Positions 7,437 through 46,294 of a stretch of 64,000 bases of DNA are shown here, in pieces. A model generated the notes under the pieces. It was not told the origin of the DNA, ran no database searches, and was given only the letters and a program-made list of their open reading frames with translations. Every line of letters starts with the position of its first letter. Positions within the stretch are counted from its first letter, which is position 1. The position numbers and the translations under genes were made by a program. This stretch comes from Cyanobacteria bacterium REEB67 (GTDB lineage Bacteria; Cyanobacteriota; Vampirovibrionia; Obscuribacterales; Obscuribacteraceae), in NCBI GenBank assembly GCA_018971775.1, contig JAGXAB010000003.1, positions 1 through 64,000 of the forward strand, read 5' to 3'.

Positions 7437-8414
7437 TCAGCGCTCGACAAGGGCCATCATGTTTTTTTGATAGCGTGGTCCGGCAGTCTTTTCAAAAATG
7501 CTGTTCAATTCTTCGACGTCAGGTTTATCGAGGTAGAGGTCGACAGCGGCGGCGTTTTCTTCCAGATACTTCAAGCGCTTCGTGCCCGGTATCGGTACGA
7601 ACCCTGGACTTTTTTCCAGTATCCAGGCGAGGGCAACTTGCGAGGGGGTGGCTTCGTATTTACGGGCAATACTCTTAACCAGAGCTACTAGTTGCATGTT
7701 TTTGGCGAAGTTTTCACCCTGGAAGCGGGGATCGTTTTTGCGGAAATCATCAGCAGCGAGATCGTCGAATTTTTTGATCTCACCGCTGAGAAAACCACGA
7801 CCGAGGGGGCAAAATGGCACAAGGCCTATGCCCAGCTCTTGCAAGGTGGGAATGATTGTAGTCTCCAGCCCACGCTCCCAGAGCGAATACTCCGACTGCA
7901 GTGCGCTTACCGGATGTTCTTTGTGAGCGCGCCTGATTGTTTCGGCACCGGCCTCGGAGAGGCCGATATAGCGGATCTTTCCTTCGGCGACGAGTTCGCC
8001 AAGCGTACCGATAACCTCTTCGATTGGTACTTGGGGATCGACGCGGTGCTGGTAAAAAAGGTCGATGTGCTCGACACCAAGCCGCTCCAGCGACGCCTCT
8101 GCTACGGCGCGAATGTTTTTGGGATGGCTGTTGACGCCGTTGATCTTGCCTTCTTCCAGGTTGAAGCCAAATTTTGTGGCGATGATCGCCTGGTCGCGTC
8201 TGTCTCTCAGCGCGCGTCCGAGCAAAACTTCATTGGTATACGGGCCATAGGCTTCAGCCGTGTCGAAAAAATTAATGCCAAGCTCGAGGGCGCGGTGGAT
8301 GACTTTTATTGAGATCTTGTCATCGGCCTGACCATAGCTCTGACTCATGCCCATGCAGCCAAGGCCTATCGCTGATACTTCCAATCCATATTTTCCCAGG
8401 CTGCGTTTTTTCAT
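7437..8414 (-). CDS. Aldo/keto reductase
   Basis: NADPH-dependent reductase of the aldo/keto reductase superfamily, 325 residues, the usual size. It opens with the family pattern ([21 protein letters not shown]). The catalytic tetrad can be located: Asp and Tyr in [14 protein letters not shown], Lys in IIATKFGF and His in [10 protein letters not shown]. The C-terminal cofactor loop is [15 protein letters not shown]. It resembles the group of general aldehyde or quinone-reducing members (YakC/AKR13-like); the true substrate cannot be read from sequence. It follows the RND adaptor by 29 bases on the same strand and may be co-transcribed with the pump, which would suggest a shared response to toxic compounds. 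Confidence 0.92.
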
Positions 8415-8443: not shown

Positions 8444-9859
8444 TTATTTCTCGATTGGCTTGTCGATTGCGACGCGACCACCGTCTTTGAGGGCATCGCT
8501 GGGATTGACGACAACTTGATCGTTGCCTTTTAGCCCGGCCACCACTTCTATTTCTTTACCAAAATCATCACCTAATTGTACCGGGCGATACTCGATTGTG
8601 TTGTTGACGGCAAGGACGACCTGCGGACCGTCACCTCTGGTGACGAGGGCGTTGGCCGGGATGATGAATGTGCGCGTATTGCGGGGCAGAGCGAAGCTTA
8701 CATCGGCGTACATGCCAGGCGTCAGAGTGAGATCCGGGTTGGGGATGTGGATCTCGGTCTTCAACGTGCGGGCGGCGGCGTCGAGGGCGACGGAAGTGCG
8801 CAGGATTTTGCCGCTGAAGACGCGACCGGGAAATTCTTTTAAGGCTACTTGCACAGTTTGTCCGACGCGGATGCTGCTCGATGCGTATTGCGGCACTTCG
8901 ACGAATACTTTGACTGTGTCGATGCGGGCGATGCGATAAAGCGAGGTCTTGGAATTTTCGGAGCCGCCGGTAATCAGTGTACCTGCGTCGATATTGCGTT
9001 CGGTGATTACGCCGGTAAATGGCGCTGTCACTTTATTGAAGGCTTGTTGAGTTTTGGTGCGATTTTGTCTGGCCTGAGCGGCATCGATATTGGCATCACC
9101 CATATTCAAATTGGCGAGCTCAGCGTGGACGCGGGCCCGGGCGGCGATGACCTGGGATTGCAGCGAGCGCACTCTGTCTTCGGCGGCCTGGGTGGCGGCA
9201 ATGCTCATTTTCAAATTGTTTTCTTTGTCATCGGCGTCATGGCTCGAAACAGCGCCTTGTTCGGCCAGCGTGCGCCAGCGTCTGTCCGAACTTTCCGAAA
9301 ATTTCTGATTGCTCTTGCGCTCGATGACATTGGCGCGAGCCTGGGCGAGATCGGCCACAGCCGTGTCGTAGTCGGCTTTGGCCTTGTCGAGGTTGGCCTG
9401 GATCTGGGCTTTGGTCGCCATTTGCGTCAGTACCAGCGCGCGTGCTTCTTTGGCACTCTCGTCCACTTCCGGTGTTTCGATATCAGCGAGCACCTGGCCG
9501 GTCGTCACCCGGTCACCGATGTCGGCGAAACGGCTTTTGATATAGCCGTCGGCGCGGGCATAGACCGGCGTTTCTTGCAGAGCTTCGACCGTGCCCGGCA
9601 GAGTCAGCTGGCGACTGGCGGGCGAGGCTTTGGGAGGTGCTACGGTGACGGCAGGCAGTTGATTCTCGAGCTGGCTGTGGCCCTGCTCGAGTTCCTGGGA
9701 TTGGAGCAGGCGTGGATAGATACCGATTGGCAAAACTAGAGCCATGGCGATGCCGGAAAGACTTAAGAGCCGGACCATGCCACTTGCCTTACGGCCGACG
9801 GCCGGCTTATTGTCGGTATCCAGTAGTCTGGCCTGTTCTTTTTCTTCTGTTATTGCCAT
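8444..9859 (-). CDS. RND efflux periplasmic adaptor subunit (MFP/HlyD family)
   Basis: Links the inner-membrane RND pump to an outer-membrane channel. One N-terminal membrane anchor (LLSLSGIAMALVLPIGIYP, about residues 31-48); no lipobox cysteine. The barrel-sandwich half-motifs are seen at ETPVYARADGYIKSRFADIGDRVTTGQVLADIETPEVD and again at FNKVTAPFTGVITERNIDAGTLI. A long alpha-hairpin lies between them (about 125-270), then a beta-barrel (VEVPQYASSSIRVGQ) and a membrane-proximal domain. The length of 471 is slightly long for the family. The ATG has AGGA 12 bases upstream. It has its own promoter inside the 3' end of the permease gene, a near-copy of the permease promoter. Confidence 0.92.
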   Translation of the reverse strand: MAITEEKEQARLLDTDNKPAVGRKASGMVRLLSLSGIAMALVLPIGIYPRLLQSQELEQGHSQLENQLPAVTVAPPKASPASRQLTLPGTVEALQETPVYARADGYIKSRFADIGDRVTTGQVLADIETPEVDESAKEARALVLTQMATKAQIQANLDKAKADYDTAVADLAQARANVIERKSNQKFSESSDRRWRTLAEQGAVSSHDADDKENNLKMSIAATQAAEDRVRSLQSQVIAARARVHAELANLNMGDANIDAAQARQNRTKTQQAFNKVTAPFTGVITERNIDAGTLITGGSENSKTSLYRIARIDTVKVFVEVPQYASSSIRVGQTVQVALKEFPGRVFSGKILRTSVALDAAARTLKTEIHIPNPDLTLTPGMYADVSFALPRNTRTFIIPANALVTRGDGPQVVLAVNNTIEYRPVQLGDDFGKEIEVVAGLKGNDQVVVNPSDALKDGGRVAIDKPIEK

Positions 9860-9919: not shown

Positions 9920-9933
9920 TTGAGCATAAGTCG

Positions 9934-9963
9934 ATATTAGACCGGTCGGCTAGTAGCCGTCAA
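9934..9963 (-). promoter_or_regulatory. Sigma-70-type promoter with GACCGGTC operator, in front of the RND adaptor
   Basis: On the minus strand TTGACG - 18 bases - TAATAT, close to consensus. The 8-bp palindrome GACCGGTC abuts the -10 box. The element overlaps the last codons and stop of the permease gene. The same hexamers, the same 18-base spacing and the same palindrome occur in front of the permease (13241-13270), so both promoters are probably controlled by one DNA-binding protein. Confidence 0.65.
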
Positions 9964-12900
9964 GTCCTTTTCAAGATTCTTTATCTTGCTTTGCTTGCCA
10001 CCGCGGATGGCCGAAAAAACAACCGGCACAAAGAAGAGCGTAAACATCGTGGCGAAGGTAAGGCCACCGATAACAGCCCTGCCCAGAGGCGCGTTTTGTT
10101 CGCCGCCTTCGCCGAGACCGAGTGACATCGGAATCATACCGACGACCATGGCAAAGGCAGTCATGATCACAGGCCGCAGGCGTGTCCGACCCGCTTCCAG
10201 GGCGGCATCTCGGGCGCTCAGGCCGTCGTGCAGTTTTTCATTGGCAAAAGTAATCATCAAGATACTGTTGGCCGTAGCCACGCCGATGCTCATGATCGAG
10301 CCCATCAGCGAAGGCACGTTAAAAGTCGTCGTTGTCAAAAAGAGCATCCAGATGATGCCGGCCACTGCTCCGGGAAGGGCCGTGATGATGATCAGCGGGT
10401 CGGTCCAGCTCTGGAAGTTGACGACCATGAGCAGGTAGACGAGGACGATAGCACCGATGAAGCCGATGCCGAGCTTCAGGAAGGCCGTGTCCATACTCTC
10501 GACCAGACCGCGGATGGTGATGGCATTGCCTGGTTTGAGACGACCTTTATATTCGTCAATAATTTTCTGAATGTCTTCGGCGACGCTGCCGAGATCGCTA
10601 GACTGGACATTGGCGTAGATGTCATAAACGGGTTGGATATTGAGGTGAGTGACGACGCCGCTGCCCCGGGCACGTTCGATTGTCGCGACGTTACCGAGAA
10701 ACTCCGCTTGCTTTGTCCCTTTTGTCGAGAGCGGCGTGCGCAGTATGGCGTCGAGCGAATCGATCTTGTGTTGCGGGGTCTGGATGGCGACGAAATATTG
10801 CACGCCGGTCATCGGGTCTACCCAGTAGTTTGGCGTCACCTGTGTATTGGAGCTGAGCGATACGAGGACATCGTTGGCTACATCGCGCTGGGTAAGGCCA
10901 AACTGCGCTGCCCGAGCGCGGTCCACCGTCAGCTTCAGTTGTGGCGAATCGACTTCCTGGTGCAGATGGACATCGGTGGCGCCCTTCACTCTGGCGACGC
11001 GGGCCATGATTTCGTTGGCGATTTGCAGGTTCTCGACCATGTTATAGCCGGTAACGCGGATGTTGATCGGTGCCGGCAGGCCAAAACTCAAGATTTGATT
11101 GACGATGTCGGCTGGCTGGAAATAAAAGACGAGGTGGGGAAATTTTTCGGGCAGATGCGCCCGCAGCATTTTCATGTATTCGGGGGTTGAGTGCTTGCGG
11201 TGGTGTTTGAGCGAAACCAGTATTTCACCATCAGCGGTGCCGATCGTAGCGCTGTCGCCGAAGGCCAGGTTGAAGGTCTCAGCTGGCACGCCGATGTTGT
11301 CGAGTAAAAGGCCGATTTCTTCTGCCGGTATGACTTTGTGTATTTCCGCTTCGACGGCGCTAAAAATCTGCTCGGTCTTCTCGACGCGGGTGCCACTGGC
11401 CGCCTTGACGTGCAGGCGGAATTGACCGGCGTCGACGGTGGGGAAAAAGTCACGGCCGACAAAGGGCAGCAGGGCAAAACCACTGAGCAGAATAAAGGCG
11501 GCCAGGGCGACTACCGAAAGGGGCTCAGCCAGTGCTTTATCGAGGACAATCACATAGCGTCCCCGGAAGCGTTCGAAATGCTCGTTGAAGCCGTCATGAA
11601 TGAGGGTAAAAACATTTTTCTTCGGCGCGCCGCCGCCGAGGACGAGAGCATCGTGGGCGCGCTCATGGGCAGCCAGTTCTCCGGCGAGCAAGTATTTGAC
11701 CAGCACCGGGATAACCGTACGCGAAAGCAAATAGGAGGAGAAAACGGCGAAGACGACAGCCAGGGCAAAGGGTACGAAAAGGAAGCGGGCTGGTCCTTCC
11801 AGCAGGACGACTGGGATAAAGACGATACAGATGGCGCTGGTGGCTACAAATGTTGGCACGGCGATTTGTTCGGCGCCATCGAGAATGGCTGTTTGCAGGT
11901 CTTTGCCCATGGCGATGTTGCGGTGGATGTTTTCAATTTCTACGGTGGCGTCATCGACGAGGATGCCGATTGCCAGAGCCAGCCCGCCCAGAGTCATGAT
12001 ATTGAGCGACATGCCGAGCAGGCTGAGGACGATGATCGAGCTCAGAATTGAAAGGGGAATCGAAATCAAAACAATCAAGGTACTGCGCCAGCTGCCGAGA
12101 AAGAGCAGGATCATCAAACCGGTCAGGCAGGCTGCAATCAAGCCCTCTTCCAGGACATTGTCGACGGCGGCGCGCACAAAGAGCGACTGGTCGAAGAGTG
12201 CGGCGATTTTCATACCGGGCGGTGCGGCCGCTTGCAGCACCGGGACGAGATTTTTGATCTGCTGGACGATGTCGAGGGTGCTGACATTGCCGTTTTTTAA
12301 GATAGTGACGAGTACGGAGCGTGATCCTTCGGTGCGGACGATGTTCTGCTGTACGGCGAAACCGTCGCGGACGTGAGCGACGTCACGCACGTAGACGACT
12401 TTGTTGTTGACCATCTTGATCGGAATCTGGCCGATTGATTCAATTAAAGTCGGAGTATTGTTCATCAAAACGCGGTAGTCTATATCGCCGACCTTGGCCT
12501 TCCCCGATGGCAGAGCAAGGTTTTGAGCGTTAATCGCATCGTTGACGTCGCGCGGGGAGAGGCCCATGCTCTGTAGAGAGACGGGATCGATGTCAATCAT
12601 TATTTGTCTGACTTTGCCGCCGTAGGGCGCCGGCAGTGTGGTGCCCGGTACTGTGGCCAGGGCCTGGCGGATGCGGAAAATGCCATAGTCGTAGAGTTCG
12701 GATTCACTGAGCACTTTACTGCTCAGTGATAGTTGGATAATCGGCACCGAAGCCGCCGTGTAGCGCAAAATAATCGGCGGCTGCACGCCCGGCGGCATGC
12801 GGCGCAAAATCGCCTGGGAGATGGCGGTGGCCTGGGCCATGGCCGAGTCGACATTGGCACCCGGGTGGAAGAAGAGCTTGATCACGCCGACGCCGTCGAT

Positions 12901-13155
12901 TGTTTGCGATTCCATAGACTTGACGTCTTTGACATTGGCCGAGAGCGAAAATTCGCTATACATAGTCAGTCTGTGCTCGAACTCTTCGGCGGACATCCCT
13001 GAATAAGTCCAGATGACGCTGATGACAGGGATATTGATATCCGGAAAGATGTCCACGGGCGTGTTTTTGATCGAGACCAGACCACCGATCAAAATCAAGA
13101 TGGCCGCCACTACGAAGGTGTAAGGCTTTTTCAGGGCGAGCTGGACGATCCACAT
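9937..13155 (-). CDS. RND-family efflux transporter permease
   Basis: Proton-driven inner-membrane multidrug or metabolite exporter of the AcrB/MdtB-like superfamily. Twelve membrane helices in two halves. Helix 1 is PYTFVVAAILILIGG, the helix 4 acid pair is in LAIGILVDDATVEIENIHR, and the second half ends FATMFTLFFVPVVFSAI. Two large periplasmic loops are present (about 40-330 and 570-870). The listed ORF starts at 13242, but that ATG lies inside the -10 box of the promoter at 13241-13270. The ATG at 13155 has AAGGG 7 bases upstream and yields 1072 residues starting MWIVQLALKK, the normal family start, so I use it. It precedes its adaptor; the outer-membrane partner is not in the operon. Confidence 0.95.
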   Translation of the reverse strand: MWIVQLALKKPYTFVVAAILILIGGLVSIKNTPVDIFPDINIPVISVIWTYSGMSAEEFEHRLTMYSEFSLSANVKDVKSMESQTIDGVGVIKLFFHPGANVDSAMAQATAISQAILRRMPPGVQPPIILRYTAASVPIIQLSLSSKVLSESELYDYGIFRIRQALATVPGTTLPAPYGGKVRQIMIDIDPVSLQSMGLSPRDVNDAINAQNLALPSGKAKVGDIDYRVLMNNTPTLIESIGQIPIKMVNNKVVYVRDVAHVRDGFAVQQNIVRTEGSRSVLVTILKNGNVSTLDIVQQIKNLVPVLQAAAPPGMKIAALFDQSLFVRAAVDNVLEEGLIAACLTGLMILLFLGSWRSTLIVLISIPLSILSSIIVLSLLGMSLNIMTLGGLALAIGILVDDATVEIENIHRNIAMGKDLQTAILDGAEQIAVPTFVATSAICIVFIPVVLLEGPARFLFVPFALAVVFAVFSSYLLSRTVIPVLVKYLLAGELAAHERAHDALVLGGGAPKKNVFTLIHDGFNEHFERFRGRYVIVLDKALAEPLSVVALAAFILLSGFALLPFVGRDFFPTVDAGQFRLHVKAASGTRVEKTEQIFSAVEAEIHKVIPAEEIGLLLDNIGVPAETFNLAFGDSATIGTADGEILVSLKHHRKHSTPEYMKMLRAHLPEKFPHLVFYFQPADIVNQILSFGLPAPINIRVTGYNMVENLQIANEIMARVARVKGATDVHLHQEVDSPQLKLTVDRARAAQFGLTQRDVANDVLVSLSSNTQVTPNYWVDPMTGVQYFVAIQTPQHKIDSLDAILRTPLSTKGTKQAEFLGNVATIERARGSGVVTHLNIQPVYDIYANVQSSDLGSVAEDIQKIIDEYKGRLKPGNAITIRGLVESMDTAFLKLGIGFIGAIVLVYLLMVVNFQSWTDPLIIITALPGAVAGIIWMLFLTTTTFNVPSLMGSIMSIGVATANSILMITFANEKLHDGLSARDAALEAGRTRLRPVIMTAFAMVVGMIPMSLGLGEGGEQNAPLGRAVIGGLTFATMFTLFFVPVVFSAIRGGKQSKIKNLEKDLTATSRPV

Positions 13156-13240
13156 AAAAGAACCCTTTTCTAGAAAGAGGAGTGCGCGTAATCGGGGCCA
13201 AATAGCGGATACTATTTGCCTCAACCAGCCCGTAATTGAC

Positions 13241-13270
13241 ATATTAGACCGGTCGTCTACTGTCTGTCAA
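13241..13270 (-). promoter_or_regulatory. Sigma-70-type promoter with GACCGGTC operator, in front of the RND permease
   Basis: On the minus strand TTGACA - 18 bases - TAATAT, a consensus -35 and a near-consensus -10. The palindrome GACCGGTC lies between spacer and -10 box. Transcription would begin about 13233, downstream of the ATG at 13242, which argues that translation starts at 13155. The matching copy before the adaptor is at 9934-9963. Confidence 0.7.
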
Positions 13271-13321: not shown

Positions 13322-14218
13322 TTGAACTCGGTCGACAGTCCAACGCTTGCTAATCGCTTCATCGATTTGATTAAAGTTCTGGTTTACATCTGTCTTTGCT
13401 TCATTACTTCTTTTGTATGCGCGCCTTTGCTTGGCTATCTTTATACGCATCTGCCGAGCAAAGAGCTCTATTTCTTTGCCGTCGCGACTTTCGACTGCGG
13501 TCTGGCCATGTTGCTCATGTTTTTGTTCGGCCGCTGCTTCGATAAAAAATCATTTCTCTCCTATGGATTTAGTGGTTGCACCGCTGGTGGTGCGGTGCGC
13601 GAGGTCCTGGTCGGTGCGCTGGTGGCCGCACTGATGGTCTCCACCGTCATGCTGATCTTGTTTCTAAGCGGCTCGTACAAAGTCTCGTCGCTTGCCTGGA
13701 GCAACGATCTGATCACCTACTTGCCCTTTTTGCTCATGGCCGCCATGCGCGAAGAAGTGATTTTCCGCGGCTATGTCCTGCAAACGCTGCAAAAGAGCTT
13801 TGGTTCTATCTGGGCAATCGTAATCAGTTCGCTTCTTTTCGGTTTTTTACACCTGCTCAATTTTGACAGCAAAGTCAGCCTGCTCGCTCAGCTTTATTCT
13901 TGTCTCTGTCTCTCCATCGATGCCGGTCTCGTCTTCGCCGTCGCCTATTACGTCAAGAAGCGTCTCTGGTTTCCCTTCGGCCTGCATGTCACCTGGAATA
14001 TTTTTGAAGGGCCTGTCTACGGTACTTTCGTCTCCAGTCTCACCCTGGGCAAGCCGCTTGTCACCGGGCAACTGAGTGGTCGCACTCTTCTGACCGGCGG
14101 TGTCTTCGGTCCGGAGGCATCATTAATAGAAGTTGCCGTCTGTCTACTCCTGGTGGCGTTGCTCTGGCGTCGCACAGAATTGTATGGTGAGAATAAACCG
14201 CAGATGAATGAAAGTTGA
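13322..14218 (+). CDS. CPBP-family intramembrane glutamic endopeptidase
   Basis: Membrane protease of the CPBP (Rce1-like, Abi) family, 298 residues with about eight hydrophobic helices. The three conserved motifs are present: EEVIFRGYVLQ (paired Glu and Arg), FLHLLNFD (His) and HVTWNIFEG (His and Asn). In bacteria such proteins cleave membrane-associated peptides and some give self-immunity to bacteriocins; no bacteriocin gene was seen here. TTG is the start, supported by GAGG 5 bases upstream. It is divergent from the RND permease and overlaps the DUF2103 gene by one base. Confidence 0.85.
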   Translation: MNSVDSPTLANRFIDLIKVLVYICLCFITSFVCAPLLGYLYTHLPSKELYFFAVATFDCGLAMLLMFLFGRCFDKKSFLSYGFSGCTAGGAVREVLVGALVAALMVSTVMLILFLSGSYKVSSLAWSNDLITYLPFLLMAAMREEVIFRGYVLQTLQKSFGSIWAIVISSLLFGFLHLLNFDSKVSLLAQLYSCLCLSIDAGLVFAVAYYVKKRLWFPFGLHVTWNIFEGPVYGTFVSSLTLGKPLVTGQLSGRTLLTGGVFGPEASLIEVAVCLLLVALLWRRTELYGENKPQMNES

Positions 14219-45625: not shown

Positions 45626-46294
45626 ATGGTGATTGGCAAACGGTCTCAAAAGCGTGAAGAAACCAGGCAGGAGATATTGGCCGCTGCGGCTAAGCTCTTT
45701 AGCGAAAAAGGCTATGGGCAGTCTTCTGTGGAAGATATAGCGGCAGTGGCCGATGTCGTCAAAGGCACTTTCTATTACAATTTTGGCTCAAAAGAAGACG
45801 TAGTCATCGCTCTGCGCCATCAATCCGTGCAAAAAGCGATCAGCGAGGCTGAAACAATGGCCGCTGAGGGCGTCTCCCCGGTGCAGTGCATCGAGCATTA
45901 TTTAGTTACAACCAGTCGCTGGTCTGAAGAAAATCCCGAGCTGGCCTCGGTCCTCTTCAACAATGGCCCCCTCTTCCTGGCCGCTCGTCAGAAGAAAAAT
46001 GAAAATCCAGGCGGAGAGGCTCTCCTTGCAGGTAATGCCGCGCCAGTCAAGGCCGACACCGGCAAGACTACACAGGCTCCGCCCCTTGCGCTTGCTCTCA
46101 AAAATCTTGTCATACAGGCTCAGTCGGCAGGCGAGCTCAATGCCGCCCTCGAGCCATCCTACGTGGCAGCGCTGATTACCTTCATCGGCATGCATACGCA
46201 TCTGACCTGGGCAGCCGAAGGCATGCAGGGGAGTCCCTGCCAACAAGTGGTGACAAATTTTCGAGCTGTCCTGACTGGCCTGGCCGGTCGTTAA
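45626..46294 (+). CDS. TetR/AcrR-family transcriptional regulator
   Basis: 222 residues from ATG 45626 (GGAAG 5 bases upstream). The N-terminal helix-turn-helix is standard: TRQEILAAAAKLFSEKGYGQSSVEDIAAVADVVKGTFYYNFGSKEDVV. The C-terminal ligand-binding helical domain (from about residue 60) resembles TetR_C proteins that respond to small molecules. It lies 12 bases before the slipin gene, so they may form an operon. Whether it binds the duplicated GACCGGTC sites of the RND pump is untested; it is the only TetR gene in the window. Confidence 0.92.
   Translation: MVIGKRSQKREETRQEILAAAAKLFSEKGYGQSSVEDIAAVADVVKGTFYYNFGSKEDVVIALRHQSVQKAISEAETMAAEGVSPVQCIEHYLVTTSRWSEENPELASVLFNNGPLFLAARQKKNENPGGEALLAGNAAPVKADTGKTTQAPPLALALKNLVIQAQSAGELNAALEPSYVAALITFIGMHTHLTWAAEGMQGSPCQQVVTNFRAVLTGLAGR

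Follow-up and report, generated by a model that had tools for sequence, protein, structure and literature searches.

Two promoter-operators of probable NemR/AcuR type frame the permease gene of an RND efflux pump in the Obscuribacterales

The RND efflux permease gene within the window analyzed here (the whole stretch of 64,000 nucleotides from Cyanobacteria bacterium REEB67, positions 1 to 64,000 of contig JAGXAB010000003.1) is framed by two copies of a 30-base promoter-operator, both of which are very probably NemR/AcuR-type operators fused to sigma-70 promoters, by means of which an electrophile-responsive repressor would control the permease and adaptor genes separately. The elements, the regulon they belong to, the conservation of their pairing, their association with NemR-like TetR genes and the conserved cysteine of the encoded proteins can all be read directly from the sequences, and the regulator, which an earlier note on this DNA had called unknown, is strongly indicated by the operator, the gene context and the own-promoter sites to be a NemR/AcuR-type TetR.

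Results

The pump operon lies on the minus strand and consists of the permease gene (ACR_tran; 9937..13155, start ATG 13155; PF00873, E 1e-199), that of the periplasmic adaptor, or membrane-fusion protein (8444..9859, start ATG 9859; PF16576, and TIGR01730 above its cut-off), and, as the third gene, that of an aldo/keto reductase (7437..8414; PF00248), whose best NCBIfam match is the methylglyoxal reductase YdjG, below the cut-off of that model. Promoter-operator 1 (TTGACAGACAGTAGACGACCGGTCTAATAT; 13241..13270, minus strand) precedes the permease and comprises a -35 box TTGACA (13265-13270), the operator TAGACGACCGGTCTA (13245-13259) and a -10 box TAATAT (13241-13246), the spacer being 18, while promoter-operator 2 (TTGACGGCTACTAGCCGACCGGTCTAATAT; 9934..9963, minus strand) precedes the adaptor, with TTGACG at 9958-9963, the operator TAGCCGACCGGTCTA at 9938-9952 and TAATAT at 9934-9939; in both, the -35 and -10 boxes are fair sigma-70 ones, 18 bp apart. 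The duplication claimed in the earlier note is exact as to position, the two 30-mers being identical at 25/30 bases and their 60-base flanks at 30% and 23% (no more than unrelated DNA would show), and shuffled versions of both element regions gave best 30-base matches of 17-22 of 30. The combination TTGAC..TAATAT with a variable gap is seen at these two places only in the window (0.07 expected; two in 0/100 shuffles).

That the adaptor has a copy of its own overlapping permease coding sequence was likewise read correctly: the last permease codons and the stop lie inside element 2, the stop TAA (9937-9939) being the TAA of its TAATAT, and the permease ends in ...SRPV* because CGACCGGTC encodes RPV. 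Counted from element 2, the adaptor mRNA has a predicted leader of ~67 nt. The permease start proposed at 13155 holds too, as the orthologues share this start, beginning at the same MW[IV]V.LAL..PYT, and an ATG at 13242 falls inside the -10 box of element 1. A predicted membrane protein (13322-14218, plus strand), which by eye resembles a CAAX protease, is encoded divergently, its start lying ~50 bp from element 1, and a divergent gene is likewise present beside the element 1 position in the congener (G001).

The host assembly (6.75 Mb, 209 contigs) harbors a regulon of ~11 such promoters, with reversed-pattern controls giving 0-1. The genome-wide search by which the earlier note had hoped to list the regulon, and in which many random copies would have refuted the proposal, returned 7 exact matches to TTGACN6TAGNCNACNGGTCTANNAT plus 1 with one mismatch, versus 0 in the reversed control, nearly all of them just upstream of genes, and the 15-mer TAGNCGACCGGTCTA has 10 exact occurrences in the genome (~0.05 expected for its 14 fixed bases). 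When the left half-site was set free (TTGACN{10,13}GACYGGTCTA), 11 genome sites were found, and, because 9 of these have TAGNC on the left, this half-site is conserved independently. The dyad TAGAC-N5-GTCTA has 8 genome sites, as opposed to 0-3 for each of N3, N4, N6, N7 and N8, which makes TAGAC-N5-GTCTA the operator (N5/N6 in the group as a whole); its final TA is common to the operator and the -10 box, and the elements across the genome share a fixed register with -35/-10. Besides the pump with its two elements, the regulon includes three SDR reductases (C46, C122, C168), an alpha/beta hydrolase (C206), a YceI protein and an ion-channel-like protein (both C21) and the TetR genes at C177, C33 and C21. 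The shorter string GACCGGTC, put forward earlier as the palindrome, was rejected as the operator: it sits off-centre within TAGAC-N5-GTCTA, the dyad centre being elsewhere, the conserved block (TAGNC...GGTCTA) exceeds it, two of its four copies in the window have no promoter boxes around them, and GACTGGTC variants are common, one of them at nemR of Escherichia coli, where TAGACCGACTGGTCTA ends 14 nt before the ATG.

Orthologous pump loci were compared in ten genomes of nine genera (the host and nine further genomes; permease orthologues at 75-88% identity). The element is found upstream of the permease in 9/9 loci with upstream sequence, the copy in G029 preceding a hydrolase-permease unit, and upstream of the adaptor in 10/10. 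All 19 of these elements have TTGAC ~17-18 bp from the -10, and, aligned on the right end of the operator, they are near-invariant over CGACCGGTCTA, where the mean top frequency is 0.99, compared with a near-random 0.40 beyond the promoter. In G000 (the host), G001, G005 and G009 the adaptor copy extends into the end of the permease gene, and in the other pump loci it lies between the genes, so the coding overlap is incidental. The regulon within the genome and a pairing conserved across nine genera bear out the earlier proposal that the element has been kept by selection. RND paralogues in the relatives (~50% identity) showed no element near their start or end, except for one three-mismatch match in L156.

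Half-site spacing varies among these loci, with N6 (TAGAC-N6-GTCTA) at both pump copies in G005, G006, G013 and G014, N5 in G000, G001, G009 and G029 as well as at the adaptor copy of G004, and a mixture of the two in G023 only. As the -35/-10 spacer stays at ~17-18 bp, the difference lies in the position of the left half-site. Mapped on the TetR tree, the spacing class requires 4 changes versus a shuffle mean of 9.1 (as low in 1 of 1000), a match that is no proof of co-adaptation, since a promoter and its adjacent gene are inherited together. The spacing of 6 seen at E. coli nemR and for AcuR is not that of the host pump and regulon sites, which are N5; since several related genera have N6 at the corresponding pump sites, spacing varies inside the TetR_C_13 group.

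The third gene of the pump locus is a NemR-like TetR in 6/10 genomes (G004, G005, G006, G009, G013, G014), its place being taken by the aldo/keto reductase in the host and its congener G001. The host pump operon has no cognate TetR within it, and three paralogues are encoded elsewhere in the genome: among the 21 TetR_N genes of the host, strong matches to PF16925 (TetR_C_13) are seen in 3 only (C21, C33 and C177; 68-80 bits versus a cut-off of 27), none of them encoded within the window and each adjoining an element. The C177 gene (G000:C177:53464) begins ~40 nt past an element laid out like those of the window; it carries the element in its own promoter. PF21993 (LmrA/YxaF) is a further match of the C-terminal domain, with a lower score than PF16925 for all three, and the PDB structures matched by the host TetRs include that of NemR, 4yze (E 2e-23). 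Every full-length element-linked TetR in the alignment retains Gly-Cys at the column of NemR Cys106. For the C177 TetR, the best NCBIfam model is the AcuR equivalog NF051457, at 175.9 of 247 bits and below its cut-off, and the branch that unites this protein with the pump-linked TetRs in the tree has weak support.

A scan of GTDB genomes (257 Gb) located the 30-bp pattern in 75 stretches, where its 19 fixed bases would lead one to expect ~2; most come from Obscuribacterales/Melainabacteria, Marinobacter and deltaproteobacterial groups. At the loci outside the Obscuribacterales, a NemR-like TetR (TetR_C_13) is the first gene after the element in 38/46, and in 30 of these 38 an ATG lies 6-7 nt past the -10, for which a leaderless mRNA is predicted; leaderless regulator mRNAs look general for the element-linked TetR group (loci L068-L141, Marinobacter and others). 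In Marinobacter, the gene for a NemA homologue (~370 bits) comes after the element-linked TetR gene, often along with one for an SDR, and a zinc-type dehydrogenase gene is divergent. One Obscuribacterales relative (L092) has an OYE placed under the element; no nemA-type flavin reductase was found at the TetR loci of the host itself. Over 60 relatives, 30 have both the element and a strong TetR_C_13 match, 1 the element only, 5 the TetR only and 24 neither, a co-occurrence that is inflated by shared ancestry. At five TetR loci of relatives (L223, L225, L229, L240, L246), three successive elements in ~200-300 bp steps lie upstream of the NemR-like TetR, which suggests small genes each with an operator of its own, like at the host C33 locus.

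Discussion

NemR and AcuR are known to act as dimeric repressors that, sitting on their site, block RNA polymerase until an inducer releases them. At the host pump, a dimeric TetR_C_13 repressor, most likely the product of G000:C177:53464 or else one of its paralogues C33 and C21, would bind TAGAC-N5-GTCTA between -35 and -10, and repressor and polymerase would be mutually exclusive because the operator ends in the TA with which the -10 box begins. The repressor would be inactivated by a reactive electrophile or some other ligand, possibly via the cysteine of the conserved Gly-Cys-Leu, by analogy to NemR, and the inducer class, on the same analogy, is probably electrophilic. Derepression would start transcription near 13234, yielding a permease-adaptor-aldo/keto reductase mRNA, and, from a second start near 9927, an adaptor-reductase one, so that promoter 2 may supply extra adaptor, the promoter-distal gene in a permease-first operon, plausibly meeting a need of the RND pump for adaptor excess. 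A farther-reaching reading, by which a NemR-type electrophile switch in the Obscuribacterales drives an RND pump via two independent operator-promoters, a conserved arrangement setting the adaptor:permease ratio, with the N5/N6 operator forms following the TetR subclade, is offered only tentatively.

Somewhat unlikely is the reading that retains the same operators and TetR group and has the repressor gated by a ligand, like AcuR (acrylate) or LmrA/QdoR (flavonoids), rather than by a thiol/electrophile switch, the pump exporting that ligand or a relative of it. It is in keeping with AcuR being the best NCBIfam model (176 bits), with the additional match of the C-terminal domain to PF21993 and with an operator that overlaps the promoter, as it does in AcuR; the genes co-regulated at element loci (NemA/OYE, quinone-type reductases, AKR, SDR, nitronate monooxygenase), however, are typical of electrophile detoxification, and the Cys106 column is kept, albeit this column is also present in 3bru and in the neighbourhood of LmrA-like relatives, which makes a kept cysteine compatible with ligand gating as well. 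That element 2 acts chiefly as a repressor roadblock against read-through from promoter 1, tightening repression, and is not an adaptor promoter, seems rather improbable: its location inside the transcription unit and, in some genomes, within permease coding sequence would suit such a role, but the retention in 10/10 adaptor copies of TTGAC and a TA-containing -10 at ~17-18 bp would be superfluous for it. A different regulator, with the NemR-like TetRs as bystanders, is highly unlikely, as the TetR at 45626, the candidate named in the earlier note, has nothing more in its favor than being present in the window, and lacks PF16925, the conserved cysteine of the Gly-Cys-Leu motif and an element nearby, whereas NemR-like TetRs adjoin elements in the host as well as in related genomes and other phyla. 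That the two elements are alike by chance or through recent copying of one promoter, a reading to which the mere two copies in the window might point, can be practically dismissed given the genome-wide and cross-phylum enrichment, the unrelated flanks and a pairing kept where permeases are 75-88% identical.

If the pump is indeed under a NemR/AcuR-type repressor, the doubling of the operator at an RND pump is unusual, not categorically new, and the regulator is of an already known kind. In the literature collection searched, no relevant paper came up for the operator strings, and the two papers in it that mention NemR, RND, efflux and electrophile jointly describe no such pump in their titles and abstracts. 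The analysis adds an operator and a class of regulator for an entire regulon of a mostly uncultured, non-photosynthetic cyanobacterial order (Obscuribacterales), in which an RND pump is thereby probably linked to electrophile stress, together with a clean test case for why a pump subunit gene keeps an operator-promoter copy of its own across nine genera.

The nemR-nemA-gloA regulon of E. coli has electrophile-detoxifying enzymes as its targets (PMC3739934), and the likeness of its regulator to the host system extends to the TetR domain group, the Cys106 column and a TAGAC/GTCTA repeat just upstream of nemR; the E. coli system differs in having N6 between the half-sites, where the host has N5, and in being a single operon, as opposed to the ~11 promoters of the host that include an RND pump with two operator copies. 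For AcuR, the mutationally proven operator TAATAGAC-N6-GTCTATTA overlaps the promoter of the Rhodobacter sphaeroides acuR-acuI-dddL operon, AcuR is autoregulated, and a leaderless regulator mRNA has been shown experimentally (PMC3017554). The host shares with it a TetR repressor, an operator overlapping the promoter, autoregulation (as the own-promoter sites would have it) and the leaderless mRNA (predicted in 30/38 outside loci), whereas the AcuR operon is an acrylate-gated DMSP one, has N6 and includes no pump, and the C177 TetR falls below the AcuR equivalog cut-off. AcrR-acrAB is a case of an RND adaptor-permease operon under a TetR-family repressor, as is proposed for the host pump; in pumps of that type the adaptor gene comes first and a single promoter is regulated, whereas in the host the permease gene comes first and each subunit gene has an operator-promoter of its own. 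LmrA/QdoR (YxaF) of Bacillus subtilis has the related C-terminal domain PF21993, and LmrA acts on the gene of a drug exporter via a box of the TAGA/TCTA type, the differences being flavonoid inducers, an MFS-type exporter and a dyad shorter than the host operator. QdoR is autoregulated (PMC8481877). A second dyad class, with a spacing of 2, is over-represented in the host genome (8 N2 sites versus 0-3 for most other spacings), 6 of its sites having the 12-bp form TAGAC[CT][GA]GTCTA (C59:26902, C91:69677, C159:3041, C200:106200, C202:20244 and C207:1056 of G000), and might serve as the binding site of a further TetR resembling LmrA/QdoR.
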